This document shows positions 6,788-9,857 of a stretch of DNA of 23,531 nt, piece after piece (the first letter of the stretch is position 1; every line of letters starts with the position of its first letter). The notes under the pieces are model-generated. The model had not been told where the DNA came from. It saw only the letters and a list, made by a program, of their open reading frames with translations, and did no database searches. Location of the stretch: NCBI GenBank assembly GCA_001942045.1, contig MSTD01000069.1:1-23531 (forward strand). Direction: 5' to 3'. The position numbers and the translations under genes are program-made. Source of the stretch: Mycolicibacterium porcinum (GTDB lineage: Bacteria > Actinomycetota > Actinomycetes > Mycobacteriales > Mycobacteriaceae).

Positions 6788-7600
6788 GTGACGGCCGACA
6801 CCGCGCAGCAGGCCGGCGGCTGGGAAAGCACGCTCCCCCACTTCTCGACCGTGGAGAAGCACGGCGCCATCACGGTGCCGGTCTCCCACCCCTCGGAGAC
6901 ACTGCGGTTCTTCGCCGGGCTCACCTTCGTGTTGTGGGCGCTCGTCGCTGTCGGGGCCGCGTTCTGGTATCACACCATGCAGACCCACGCCCCGTCGCCA
7001 TGGCTCGGTTTCGCCACGATCCTGGGTTCGTTCCTGCCCGCCATCCTCTCCACCATCGTCGCCGACGAGGCCCGCGACACATTCGGGCAACGCCGGACCG
7101 GAAATCGGATCGCACTGATTCCGACTCTGTCCGGTGTCGCGGTCGGGTTGCTCGGCGCCGCAGTGTGGTTCAGAGATGTCAGCGGCGCTGTCATCGCCCT
7201 GGTCAGCGTGGTGTGCTCAGCCGGCGCGGCGATCGCCACCCTCACGGCATGGCGGGGCGTGCGCTACCTCCGGCGGCGCCAGGACCGGCTGGCGGCGTTG
7301 CGGAACCACGGCGTTCGTTCCACGGGTGAGCTGCGCAACGTGAAATTCCTGAAACGTTGGACCGCGGACGACCCGCAATTCACCGTCACCGTCGCATTCG
7401 AAGGTCCGACCGGACGCCGGGTGGTGACGGCGAACATGGTCGCCGATCACGCCCGGGTTCCGCTGGCGGGGTCACGTGTCCTCGTCTTCTGTGCACCGCA
7501 CGACGCCAGCGATGACGTGCTGATCGAACTCGACCCCGCCGATCCGCCCAAGTTCGACCGCGATCCCGGTGGCCGGTACCGCAAGCCGAGCGGCACTTAG
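6788..7600 (+). CDS. Unrecognised membrane protein with C-terminal soluble domain
   Basis: This 270-residue protein is not from a family I can name. After a polar N-terminus there are about four hydrophobic helices: ~39-60 (FAGLTFVLWALVAVGAAFWY), ~70-90 (GFATILGSFLPAILSTIVA), ~106-125 (LIPTLSGVAVGLLGAAVWF) and ~130-150 (AVIALVSVVCSAGAAIATL). A basic stretch (RYLRRRQDRLAALRNHG) leads into a small domain with beta-like strands (FTVTVAFEGPTGRRVV, GSRVLVFCAPHD, DVLIELDP), loosely like DUF3592-type domains. The GTG start at 6788 has a GGGAG Shine-Dalgarno 7 nt upstream. It ends convergently with the DAHP synthase gene, sharing the bases TTAG for both stop codons. Confidence 0.75.
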   Translation: MTADTAQQAGGWESTLPHFSTVEKHGAITVPVSHPSETLRFFAGLTFVLWALVAVGAAFWYHTMQTHAPSPWLGFATILGSFLPAILSTIVADEARDTFGQRRTGNRIALIPTLSGVAVGLLGAAVWFRDVSGAVIALVSVVCSAGAAIATLTAWRGVRYLRRRQDRLAALRNHGVRSTGELRNVKFLKRWTADDPQFTVTVAFEGPTGRRVVTANMVADHARVPLAGSRVLVFCAPHDASDDVLIELDPADPPKFDRDPGGRYRKPSGT

Positions 7601-8655
7601 CCGTTACGAACCGCCAATTCCCGCAGCACCAGATCCGTTGCGTCCCAATCCATGCACTTATCGGTGACCGACTGGCCGTAGGTCAGCGGACGGGCGTCGG
7701 GCGACTGGGCACCGGCGATCAGGAAGCTCTCCAGCATCACCCCGCTGATCGGCAATCCGTCACGTACCAACTGGGCCACCTCGGCGGCCACCGACGCCTG
7801 GCGGATGTGGTCCTTGCCGGAATTGGCGTGGCTGCAATCGATCACGACCCGACCGGGAAGCCCGGCAGCGGTCAGCTTGGCGGCGGCATCGGCCACCGCG
7901 TCGGCCCCGTAGTTCGGTCCGTCGGTCCCGCCGCGCAGGATCACGTGGCAGTCCTCGTTGCCTTCGGTACTCACCACCGCGCCGCGGCCCATGTCGTCCA
8001 TACCGAAGAAGACATGCTCGGCCGCAGCGGCTTTCACGCCGTCGACCGCGACCTGGATGTTGCCGTCGGTGCCGTTCTTGAACCCGACCGGCATTGACAG
8101 TCCCGACGCCAGCTGACGGTGCACCTGCGACTCGGTGGTGCGGGCGCCGATCGCGCCCCAGGCGACGGCGTCGGCGATGTACTGCGGGCTGGTCGGCTCC
8201 AGGAACTCACACCCGACCGGCAGGCCGATGTCGATGATGTCGAGCAGCAGTTGACGGGCCACCCGCAGGCCACGCGCGACATCGTAGGTGCCGTCCATGC
8301 CCGGATCGTTGATCAGGCCCTTCCACCCGATGGTGGTGCGCGGCTTCTCGAAGTACACCCGCATCACGATCTTGAGCTGGTCTTTGAGCTCATCGGCCAC
8401 CTTGACCAACCGGCTGGCGTATTCCAGCGCAGCCGCGGGGTCATGCACCGAACAGGGGCCGACGACCACGAGCAGCCGGTCGTCCCGACCGGCCAGGATG
8501 TCGGCGATCTCGTCGCGGTCTCGGGACACCCGCTCGGCGCGGCGCTCCCCCAACGGGAACTCGGTCAACACATCGTGCGGGCTGGGGATCGCGCTGAAAC
8601 TGCGGACCCGTCGGTCCGATGTGGCGGGGGCGTTGGCGATCTGCGCCAAATTCAT
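7597..8655 (-). CDS. aroF: 3-deoxy-7-phosphoheptulonate (DAHP) synthase, class I
   Basis: This 352-residue enzyme condenses phosphoenolpyruvate and erythrose 4-phosphate, the first step of the shikimate pathway to Phe, Tyr and Trp. The class I (AroF/G/H) motifs are all present: VVGPCSVHDP, MRVYFEKPRTTIGWKG, GARTTESQVHR, KNGTDG and DCSHANSGKDH. The length matches the family. Slow-growing mycobacteria such as M. tuberculosis rely on a class II enzyme (AroG), so a class I enzyme is probably an additional, separately regulated isozyme. The ATG is at 8655, with AGGAAGG upstream placed inside a hairpin. A leader peptide rich in aromatic residues and an attenuator-like terminator precede it. The gene symbol follows usage for this class; feedback specificity (Tyr or Phe) cannot be read from the sequence. 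Confidence 0.95.
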   Translation of the reverse strand: MNLAQIANAPATSDRRVRSFSAIPSPHDVLTEFPLGERRAERVSRDRDEIADILAGRDDRLLVVVGPCSVHDPAAALEYASRLVKVADELKDQLKIVMRVYFEKPRTTIGWKGLINDPGMDGTYDVARGLRVARQLLLDIIDIGLPVGCEFLEPTSPQYIADAVAWGAIGARTTESQVHRQLASGLSMPVGFKNGTDGNIQVAVDGVKAAAAEHVFFGMDDMGRGAVVSTEGNEDCHVILRGGTDGPNYGADAVADAAAKLTAAGLPGRVVIDCSHANSGKDHIRQASVAAEVAQLVRDGLPISGVMLESFLIAGAQSPDARPLTYGQSVTDKCMDWDATDLVLRELAVRNG

Positions 8656-8659
8656 TTTT

Positions 8660-8687
8660 CAGGTGCCTTCCTGGTGGTGGGCACCTG
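8660..8687 (-). promoter_or_regulatory. Hairpin holding the aroF Shine-Dalgarno
   Basis: On the minus strand, CAGGTGCC and GGCACCTG form a perfect 8-bp stem with a 12-nt loop (CACCACCAGGAA). The ribosome-binding sequence AGGAAGG straddles the loop and 3' arm, and the aroF ATG follows 4 nt after the stem. Folding could limit initiation or require unfolding. It could also simply be a chance structure in GC-rich DNA. Confidence 0.4.
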
Positions 8688-8707
8688 CGAGAGTTCCGGC
8701 GCCCTGT

Positions 8708-8740
8708 AACGACGAAAGGCAGCGACCGATGGTCACTGCC
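8708..8740 (-). terminator. Attenuator terminator in the aroF leader
   Basis: On the minus strand, GGCAGTGACC-ATC-GGTCGCTGCC folds into a 10-bp stem with one G-U pair and a 3-nt loop (8740-8718). It is followed by TTTCGTCGTT (8717-8708), a modest U-rich tail. It lies between the leader peptide stop and aroF, as expected for a transcription attenuator. Its 3' arm can pair instead with the leader hairpin's 3' arm. Confidence 0.62.
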
Positions 8741-8762
8741 TGGGCTCCGGGTGGATGCGTGC

Positions 8763-8837
8763 TTAGTGCTGCGCTTTATCGGCTCCGCCCGGAGCCTCGA
8801 TAAAGCGCCAATAGCCGGCACACACACCGATAGTCAC
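8763..8837 (-). CDS. Aromatic leader peptide of the aroF attenuator
   Basis: A 24-codon frame runs from GTG (8837-8835) to TAA (8765-8763). It starts V-T-I-G-V-C-A-G and then reads Y9-W10-R11-F12, so codons for all three aromatic amino acids fall within four positions. The 5' arm of a strong hairpin overlaps the Arg and Phe codons. The start is supported by TAGCCT (8850-8845) 7 nt upstream with no Shine-Dalgarno, so the leader peptide is probably made from a leaderless mRNA. Its role would be to sense charged aromatic tRNAs: stalling at Tyr/Trp/Phe codons would favour read-through into the DAHP synthase gene. Similar attenuation before an actinobacterial DAHP synthase has been reported in Corynebacterium (from memory). 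Confidence 0.75.
   Translation of the reverse strand: MTIGVCAGYWRFIEAPGGADKAQH
8771..8808 (-). promoter_or_regulatory. Leader hairpin (segments 1 and 2) of the aroF attenuator
   Basis: On the minus strand, GCGCTTTATC-GA-GGCTCC pairs with GGAGCC-GATAAAGCGC around a GGGC loop: 16 base pairs with a 2-nt bulge. The 5' arm overlaps the Arg11-Phe12 codons of the leader peptide and the 3' arm ends just before its stop codon. The 3' arm sequence AAAGCGCAGC can alternatively pair with GCTGCCTTT of the terminator (one bulged C), which would prevent terminator formation. Confidence 0.65.
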
Positions 8838-8844
8838 GTCGGCC

Positions 8845-8875
8845 AGGCTACACGACCGCCGACGCCGGATCACAA
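8845..8875 (-). promoter_or_regulatory. Promoter of the aroF leader transcript
   Basis: On the minus strand, TAGCCT (8850-8845) is a TANNNT -10 ending 7 nt before the leader GTG. TTGTGA (8875-8870) is a possible -35 with a rather long 19-nt spacer. The start site would coincide with the leader peptide's first codon. Confidence 0.5.
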
Positions 8876-8884
8876 CCGGGCAGT

Positions 8885-8903
8885 TCACAAGCGTGGTTTG
8901 TGA
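8885..8903. promoter_or_regulatory. 19-bp inverted repeat, copy A (LysR/aroF divergent region)
   Basis: TCACAA-N7-TTGTGA is a perfect 6-bp inverted repeat. Read on the minus strand it is TCACAAACCACGCTTGTGA, identical at 18 of 19 positions to copy B at 11120-11138. It ends 21 bp before the LysR start codon and is centred about 57 bp upstream of the predicted aroF-leader start site. The arms do not have the T-N11-A spacing of a textbook LysR box. Confidence 0.65.
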
Positions 8904-8924: not shown

Positions 8925-9857
8925 ATGCCGCTCAGCCCAAGGATGCCCGAGCTGGCAGCGTTCGAAGTGCTGCTGGCGATCGCGCGCACCGGCAGCCTCG
9001 GAGCCGCCGGCCGCGACCTCGGGCTCACCCAGCAGGCGGTATCTGCGCGCCTGGCGTCGATCGAGGCCCAGACCGGGGTGCGCCTGGTGCAGCGCAGTCC
9101 CCGTGGATCGCGGTTGACCGCGGCCGGCGCGGTGGTCGCGGAGTGGGCCGACCAGTTGCTCGACGTCGCCGGGCGCGTGGACGCGGGGCTGGCCGCGATG
9201 CGTAGCGAAAGCCACAGCCGGATCACCGTGGCGGCCAGCCTCACCATCGCCGAGCAACTCATGCCACGGTGGTTGGTATCGCTGCAGGCCGATGCGACGC
9301 GCCGGGGTGTCACCGCACCACAGGTCATCCTCACTGCGGCCAACAGCGACCAGGTGATCACCGCGGTGCACGACGGTTCGGCCGACCTCGGTTTCATCGA
9401 ATCCCCAGGCGCCCCAGCCGGTTTACACAGCCGGGTGATCGCGCGTGACGAGCTGGTCACCGTGGTGCCGCCGGAGCACAAATGGGCGCGACGATCGGCC
9501 CCGATCAGCCCCGCCGAACTCAACGAGACCGCCCTCGTGTCACGCGAACCAGGTTCGGGCACACGGGAAGCCCTCAGCACTGCACTGCGTTCTGCACTGG
9601 GACCGGCGAGCCGCCAGGCCGACCCGGTGATCGAATTGTCCTCTGCGGCAGCGATGCGCGCCGCGGTGCTGGCCGGAGCCGGGCCTGCGGTGATGAGCAG
9701 GCTGGCCGTCGAGGACGACCTGACCCTGGGCAGACTACGCGAGGTCCCCGTCGTCGGGCTGGATCTGCGTCGCGAGCTGCGCGCGATCTGGTCGGGAGGG
9801 CGCACGCCGCCGGCCGGGGCGGTGCGCGAGCTGCTCAGCCACATCGCGTCGCACTGA
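8925..9857 (+). CDS. LysR-family transcriptional regulator
   Basis: This 310-residue protein has the standard LysR layout. The N-terminal winged helix-turn-helix (about 8-66) includes GSLGAAGRDLGLTQQAVSAR and LASIEAQTGVRLVQRSPRGS. The C-terminal substrate-binding domain (about 93-300) includes ADLGFIESP, TVVPPEHKWA and a conserved SREPGSGTRE. ATG 8925 is chosen because TACGAT (8912-8917) ends 7 nt before it, consistent with a leaderless mRNA; an alternative ATG at 8943 is also possible. It is divergent from the aroF leader and convergent with the TDT transporter. A near-identical inverted repeat occurs at its own promoter and upstream of the transporter, so autoregulation and control of the transporter are likely. 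The effector cannot be inferred. Confidence 0.93.
   Translation: MPLSPRMPELAAFEVLLAIARTGSLGAAGRDLGLTQQAVSARLASIEAQTGVRLVQRSPRGSRLTAAGAVVAEWADQLLDVAGRVDAGLAAMRSESHSRITVAASLTIAEQLMPRWLVSLQADATRRGVTAPQVILTAANSDQVITAVHDGSADLGFIESPGAPAGLHSRVIARDELVTVVPPEHKWARRSAPISPAELNETALVSREPGSGTREALSTALRSALGPASRQADPVIELSSAAAMRAAVLAGAGPAVMSRLAVEDDLTLGRLREVPVVGLDLRRELRAIWSGGRTPPAGAVRELLSHIASH

Follow-up and report, generated by a model that had tools for sequence, protein, structure and literature searches.

What does a short open reading frame (ORF) carrying neighbouring aromatic codons do directly upstream of a DAHP synthase gene in Mycolicibacterium porcinum, and does it, as the initial annotation had it, encode the leader peptide of an attenuator? 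This enzyme stands at the head of the pathway to the aromatic amino acids. We analysed this locus within the window, i.e., the whole stretch of 23,531 nucleotides of contig MSTD01000069.1, and compared it with related loci. The explanation that we favour, at a probability of roughly 0.65, is a sensor of aromatic amino-acid shortage, in which a leaderless peptide and helices switched by a stalled ribosome would precede the DAHP synthase gene; the stalling itself and the direction of the control are what we infer from these data. The promoter, the leader ORF, and its putative target are arranged as follows, the segments named here being described below:

8845..8850, minus strand: -10 box TAGCCT, 7 nt upstream of the GTG (predicted leaderless promoter)
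8763..8837, minus strand: leader ORF MTIGVCAGYWRFIEAPGGADKAQH, 24 codons (sequence and alignment of relatives)
8802..8813, minus strand: putative regulatory codons TAT TGG CGC TTT, i.e., Tyr, Trp, Arg, and Phe, lying 17, 14, 11, and 8 nt upstream of segment A
8661..8672, minus strand: Shine-Dalgarno-like AGGAAGG and segment E, GGCACCU (sequence, swap test, and alignment)
7597..8655, minus strand: class I DAHP synthase of the aroF/G/H type, 352 aa (profile matches)

The leader ORF starts with the GTG at 8837 and stops with the TAA at 8765-8763 on the minus strand; its codons 9 to 12 are TAT (8813-8811), TGG (8810-8808), CGC, and TTT (8804-8802). The 24-codon frame with Tyr9, Trp10, and Phe12, predicted to be leaderless, that the initial annotation had described is, therefore, confirmed by the sequence and by a comparison of TANNNT boxes, and the proposed target holds as well: the gene at 8655-7597 matches TIGR00034 (E 1.4e-150) and PF00793, which identifies it as a class I DAHP synthase. 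The aromatic leader lies directly 5' of this gene, as it does in an aroR-type leader. The extent first given to the element, 8708..8837, proved too short, as the element reaches further, to about 8655. The leader peptide has no match in Pfam or NCBIfam up to E 0.01. Scanning the window with Rfam at the gathering score returned only a tRNA and no T-box, riboswitch, or other leader, and Rfam covariance models run against 8560-8900 gave no match up to E 5. The tRNA gene (RF00005) occupies positions 1634-1706 of the window on the plus strand; a gene for a LysR-type regulator (PF00126, PF03466), at window positions 8925-9857, is divergent from the leader, the two starts being 88 nt apart.

How far is such a leader shared by other genomes? 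Of 189 actinomycete regions lying 5' of class I DAHP synthase genes, 162 contain an aromatic leader, defined as an ORF with three or more aromatic residues within five codons; the set is redundant, and the wrong ORF was picked at least twice (L011 and L194). These upstream regions came from the best 80 loci of a larger list and from further genome sets (matches in 14/61 genomes, in 247/397 for the order and in 80/394 for the class, with 80 regions added). The leader carries YWRF in Mycolicibacterium, Gordonia, Williamsia, and Catellatospora and YFWF in Nocardia and Amycolatopsis, other forms in further genomes being RWYxRF, RWYAYF, and WRFYF. In the close alignment A1, which comprises 43 leaders, including that of the window, Tyr-Trp-Arg-Phe is kept in 41; the two exceptions read Tyr-Arg-Arg-Phe (L028, Trp lost) and His-Trp-Arg-Phe (L011, Tyr lost). 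Of 156 nonredundant leaders, 154 have a TANNNT box 6-8 nt upstream of an in-frame start, most often with a gap of 7 (119 hits), as compared with 5 hits at gaps 6-8 in a control using the reversed upstream sequence; because of this box, leaderless transcription is likely the rule among these leaders. A motif search detected the core once per genome in 67 of 251 genomes of the family, and none in the reversed control; all 25 of these 67 that were checked, ten loci of the single genus g214 by search and fifteen by coordinate comparison, lie upstream of the same gene, DAHP synthase. Judged by this comparison of sequences, the aromatic leader before DAHP synthase is real and conserved.

Two observations concern the genomes themselves. 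In Mycolicibacterium houstonense NZ_LT546207.1 (L020), the leader region is present twice, at 1305-1474 and 2331-2500, i.e., 1026 nt apart; the copies are identical over the 170 nt compared, which points to either a tandem duplication or an assembly artefact. The class I gene is also patchy, with a match in 11 of the 37 genomes in the genus of the nearest genome; genomes lacking a class I match may rely on a class II enzyme.

The leader transcript is predicted to fold into a long hairpin, P1, followed by a second hairpin, T, and the fold of the 182-nt leader is unusually stable (z -6.7; none of 200 shuffles as stable). Its segments are as follows:

8799..8808, minus strand: 5' arm of the lower P1 stem, GCGCUUUAUC (fold and swap test)
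8788..8796, minus strand: segment A, GGCUCCGGG, with B or segment 3 as predicted partner (folding and covariation)
8781..8786, minus strand: segment B, GGAGCC, 3' arm of the upper P1 stem (fold and alignment)
8771..8780, minus strand: 3' arm of the lower P1 stem, GAUAAAGCGC (fold, swap test, and alignment)
8743..8751, minus strand: segment 3, CCCGGAGCC, predicted to pair with A on stalling and otherwise with C
8717..8741, minus strand: hairpin T, terminator-like, with the tail UUUCGUCGUU (fold, alignment, and tail count; absent from the hits of a strict terminator scan)
8696..8704, minus strand: segment C, GGGCGCCGG, with 3 or D as predicted partner (swap test, folding, and alignment)
8679..8686, minus strand: segment D, AGGUGCCC, with C or E as predicted partner (swap test, folding, and alignment)

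The last base of the Trp codon lies in the lower P1 stem, together with the codons for Arg, Phe, and Ile. A hairpin 5' arm overlapping the Phe codon, as originally described, is indeed seen in the sequence at 8808-8799, and the corresponding 3' arm does adjoin the leader stop.

Choosing a measure of pairing was not straightforward. RNAduplex admits long interior loops, and its energies are therefore noisy at a high G+C content; compared with dinucleotide shuffles, they reached p<0.05 in 67/147 leaders for A:3 and in 61/147 for 3:C, a weak signal. We, thus, used anchored haplotype counts and swap tests, in which cognate arms are compared with swapped ones, keeping in mind that the sequences are related and that the counts are, therefore, not independent events. 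For A:3, 93 of 110 cells pair over the 22 haplotypes of the variable halves; the shuffled mean is 71.4 +/- 3.4, and 0 of 2000 shuffles reach 93. Pairing variants are found, for example, in Catellatospora (GGCUCUGGGU with ACCCAGAGCC) and in L012 (GGCUCUGGAG with CUCCAGAGCC). The cognate arms did better in 48/49 comparisons for A:3 and in 57/71 for the lower P1 stem, both run without a reversed control; for 3:C, they did so in 95/102, the reversed (71/102) and shuffled (62/107) controls both giving smaller effects. The last two tests were confined to YWRF leaders whose Shine-Dalgarno motif was recognised; there, the cognate arms were better in 43/52 for C:D (control, 20) and in 39/52 for D:E (control, 25).

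On alignment A1, the structure expected with the gene off gives standard pairs in 94.8% of the cells, as compared with 32-47% when it is slid along the alignment, and both sides have changed in 6 pairs, of which D:E contributes four, T two, and 3:C none. The alternative, on structure has 97.7% standard pairs and does not stand clearly above shuffles (27/500 for the covariation score and 172/500 for further pair types). All nine A:3 pairs (9/9) are invariant in A1, which for this reason is uninformative on A:3 covariation; the evidence for that helix comes from the wider set. Taken together, the comparisons support the leader, its codon register, and the helices P1, A:3, 3:C, C:D, and D:E.

We expressed the distance between the aromatic codons and segment A as an offset, i.e., the number of nucleotides before segment A; 97 of 100 anchored leaders follow the main register. 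Among these 97, Phe is found at offset 8 in 95 and an aromatic codon at offset 17 in 91, at 14 in 75, at 11 in 51, at 20 in 23, and at 2 in 6; none has an aromatic codon at offsets 5, 23, or 26. The leader also uses codons that are avoided by its gene: TTT encodes the Phe at offset 8 in 92 of 95 leaders, and TAT encodes the Tyr at offset 17 in 84 of 86, while the aroF genes themselves use TTT in 3/426 and TAT in 8/276 cases.

We then folded 29 of 86 leaders in silico with a ribosome placed at each codon, using leading edges of +9 and +12. With the edge at +9, the A:3 score exceeds 0.5 at offsets 17, 14, 11, and 8 in 25, 28, 29, and 27 of the 29 leaders, respectively, falling to 6/29 at offset 5 and to 0/29 when the ribosome covers A; it does so in 12/29 without a ribosome, in 13-17/29 at offsets 23-32, and in 28-29/29 when the ribosome stands 25-28 nt past A. 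Since this last position also favours A:3, the model needs a fast release of the ribosome at the stop codon. With the edge at +12, A:3 forms most often at offsets 11-20, and only 6/29 leaders would read the Phe codon at offset 8. The idea that the Phe codon is silent, only codons far from A being sensed, hinges on the assumed ribosome edge; we did not retain it, as no residue is more constant than the Phe at offset 8. The aromatic codons lie 8-20 nt upstream of A, roughly the range from which a stalled ribosome is predicted to expose A to segment 3, and the agreement between register and modelled folding at the near side is the best evidence that A:3 would read the stall.

Median pairing probabilities over 43 leaders describe the same exchange. 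In the free full RNA, A:B reaches 0.96, 3:C 0.88, and D:E about 0.73-0.83; once a ribosome occupies the Tyr, Trp, or Phe codon (edge +9), A:3 rises to 0.95, 0.99, and 0.77, respectively, and 3:C is lost. A stall position, thus, switches A:B to A:3 in silico, in these medians as well as in most of the 29 leaders above. The median of D:E is 0.17 with a ribosome stalled at Tyr, and the mean accessibility of the Shine-Dalgarno region hardly shifts on stalling (medians from 0.43 to 0.44). In the window, D:E stays at about 0.75-0.86 in every state of the full-length RNA, that with a stalled ribosome included, and the predicted last step towards the gene is ambiguous there. In RNA folded without E, as it would be before that segment is transcribed, C:D is above 0.5 in 42, 42, and 41 of the 43 leaders with a ribosome stalled at Tyr, Trp, and Phe, respectively; without a ribosome, the same level is passed by C:D in 26/43, by A:3 in 17/43, and by 3:C in only 15/43. 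Exceptions exist at the minimum energy: L024 retains A:B and 3:C with a ribosome at Tyr or Trp, L010 retains 3:C with a ribosome at Phe, and L034 and L040 form A:3 without a ribosome; in g214, where two of the ten loci were folded, L217 retains 3:C at Tyr and Phe and L218 forms A:3 without a ribosome. Codon conservation and predicted refolding, therefore, uphold the central proposal of the initial annotation, a ribosome-stall attenuator logic with codons for three aromatic amino acids.

According to the explanation that we favour, the leader peptide would sense a lack of charged Tyr, Trp, and Phe tRNA. With ample amino acids, the ribosome would pass, P1 would form, and A would be held as A:B; segment 3 would then pair with C across T, and D could pair with E, resulting in low DAHP synthase. 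If the ribosome instead stopped at an aromatic codon, 8-20 nt upstream of A, it would cover the lower P1 arm and leave A open, allowing A:3 to form, which would free C for D before E is made; E and the Shine-Dalgarno region may then be released, resulting in high DAHP synthase. The output of the signal could be the translation start, termination at T, or both. Put in its fullest form, this amounts to a relay of six segments, B-A-3-C-D-E (off: A:B, 3:C, and D:E; on: A:3 and C:D), which would carry the stall signal over ~140-160 nt to the gene start, round an intact T possibly controlled by the docked ribosome, with the codon positions acting as a ruler for the amino acids sensed; we offer this full version tentatively, as one that may well prove wrong. 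Our caution about it, and about the favoured explanation as a whole, owes something to the 26/43 free leaders in which C:D passes 0.5 ahead of E, and to the discordant single folds.

The mechanism first proposed was that of a classical transcription attenuator, in which the freed P1 3' arm AAAGCGCAGC would pair with the T 3' arm GCUGCCUUU and block termination. Their complementarity, with one bulged C, is indeed present in the letters of the window, and a hairpin after segment 3 has a tail with at least 5 U in 10 nt in 81 of 144 leaders (at most 3 U in 46), a count in which the hairpins found in the Nocardia and Amycolatopsis types may not be T. As a functional pairing, however, this complementarity finds no support: folding assigns it a rounded probability of 0.0, by mean as well as by median, in each of the five states modelled for the 43 leaders, and clear covariation is lacking, the cognate arms being better than swapped ones in 38/69 (p 0.077), or in 32/55 of YWRF leaders (p 0.068). 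Nor is there support for the claim that the switch breaks the terminator: T forms in all modelled states, with medians of 0.97-0.99 with or without a stalled ribosome, and antiterminator and terminator do not exclude each other by base pairing there. Since T is intact throughout, A:3 cannot serve as a pairing-type antiterminator and termination would not be gated by pairing exclusion. Judging from the haplotypes, the covarying helix predicted on stalling is that of A with segment 3, and not that of the 3' arms of P1 and T, and we consider the classical scheme very improbable. A docked ribosome might still act on T by proximity: A:3, which ends close to T, would hold the stalled ribosome by T and the RNA polymerase and suppress T without any pairing exclusion. 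The gap between segment 3 and T is 0-5 nt in 85 of 109 leaders (15 of the rest being overlaps of the hairpin finder) and in 109 of 144 according to another finder, which allowed gaps of no more than 11, while the distance from leader stop to segment 3 ranges from 5 to 89 nt; this constancy suggests that closeness to T matters. According to the accessible part of PMC4824070, E. coli terminators located at most several bp from the end of a gene undergo almost complete repression. The geometry is our own reconstruction, however, and the tail has at most 3 U in about a third of the leaders, as counted above. By eye, the ten g214 loci (L217-L226) retain A, 3, and C and have a U-poor T tail, CCUCCCGCC or CCUUCCGCC, and we judge control by proximity unlikely.

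These same loci lend themselves to a purely translational reading, in which T has no terminator function and the switching helices control access to the ribosome-binding site and nothing else. In all ten (10/10, by eye), an upstream CACGGC can pair with GCCGUG over the GUG start, and both C:D and D:E covary among YWRF leaders. Equilibrium folding nevertheless leaves the Shine-Dalgarno region of the window unreleased, in both of the folded g214 leaders the start region stays paired even with a ribosome stalled, and the tail is U-rich in 81 of the 144 leaders counted above; such a reading is possible, and we would sooner doubt it than adopt it. Lastly, the ORF and the hairpins could be conserved for another reason, e.g., a functional small peptide, without any aromatic sensing. 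Peptide similarity does extend past the aromatic codons (APGGADKAQH in many Mycolicibacterium), but that part falls in paired segments and varies between genera, and the aromatic codons retain both their register and rare synonymous codons, which makes this last reading hardly credible. The sensor of aromatic amino-acid shortage, with its stall-switched helices, is what we compare with known systems below.

E. coli trpL is a trp-type transcription attenuator. The present leader shares with this type the codons for pathway end products, present in sequence in the great majority of A1 leaders (Tyr-Trp-Arg-Phe), as well as the predicted stall-dependent alternative helices and a terminator-like hairpin; it differs in that the stall-induced helix does not overlap T and that an extra chain of helices reaches the ribosome-binding site. 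In erm-type translational attenuators, a drug-stalled ribosome in the leader ORF frees the ribosome-binding site via alternating helices. A stalled leader ribosome and helices alternating towards the ribosome-binding site would be common to both, whereas erm stalling is drug-induced and involves no amino-acid codons. Among Actinobacteria, trp leaders are described in PMC1262725, together with the LEU element of leuA, in which leucine codons pair with the Shine-Dalgarno box. The likeness here lies in leader codons and a long-range alternative pairing to the Shine-Dalgarno box; in our leaders, however, the aromatic codons are in or just before P1, and the signal would go via A, 3, C, and D. Indeed, no LEU-type pairing of codons with the Shine-Dalgarno region is seen in the folds, where the aromatic codons pair within P1 and E with D.

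Upstream of aroF, the accessible part of PMC8632094 reports the uORFC-13-1 motif only from Acholeplasma and environmental sequences, and mentions that a similar control was once hypothesised for E. coli aroF; our leader resembles it as a predicted attenuator before DAHP synthase, by description and not by structure. In the portions of the literature accessible to us, the 2005 survey of Actinobacteria reports no RNA structure conserved upstream of operons for Phe and Tyr (PMC1262725), a Streptomyces lividans survey names eight leaders, none of them aro (PMC8079986), and a 2026 paper on attenuation in M. tuberculosis makes no mention of aroG or DAHP (PMC13236596). Among the open-access matches listed, there was no description of a mycobacterial or general actinomycete aroF leader beyond that of C. 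glutamicum.

Aromatic leaders also precede class I DAHP synthase genes in Proteobacteria, e.g., Bordetella and Dyella, with FYFYFYGF or YFWFYGY (L070, L084, L064, L085, L074, and L081). In several of them, a segment after the codons (e.g., CCGCUGGCGG) complements, by eye, the 5' arm of a strong U-tailed terminator, which is the classical, exclusive arrangement.

The closest known system is aroR, the leader of aroF in Corynebacterium glutamicum, of which Neshat et al. (2014) is reportedly the original paper. That a DAHP synthase attenuator exists in Corynebacterium, as the initial annotation stated, is correct: the available text of PMC4046766 and PMC11802643 describes aroR with its Phe-Tyr-Phe. 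According to the part of the review PMC11802643 at hand, stalling at the leader codons enhances transcription under Phe limitation, and Tyr availability is without effect, which speaks against our favoured explanation. Both systems have a short aromatic leader peptide before one DAHP synthase gene, with Phe-Tyr-Phe in C. glutamicum versus Tyr-Trp-Phe here. Two loci from small, Corynebacterium-like genomes in the family of the nearest genome (L121 and L146) have WRFYF leaders with A, 3, and hairpin T. The leader of the window is, thus, a candidate aromatic amino-acid attenuator resembling C. glutamicum aroR, and is possibly of the same lineage. So far as the accessible sources go, a DAHP synthase attenuator has been reported as functional in C. 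glutamicum, predicted in Acholeplasma, and once hypothesised in E. coli; the comparison extends the leader to many actinomycete genera, and the putative codon ruler would predict which amino acids are sensed. In place of the expected antiterminator stands a covarying chain of predicted helices, testable one helix at a time. If the relay is true, the two-structure attenuator of the known systems would here be lengthened to a chain joining amino-acid sensing, a terminator-like hairpin, and the translation start.
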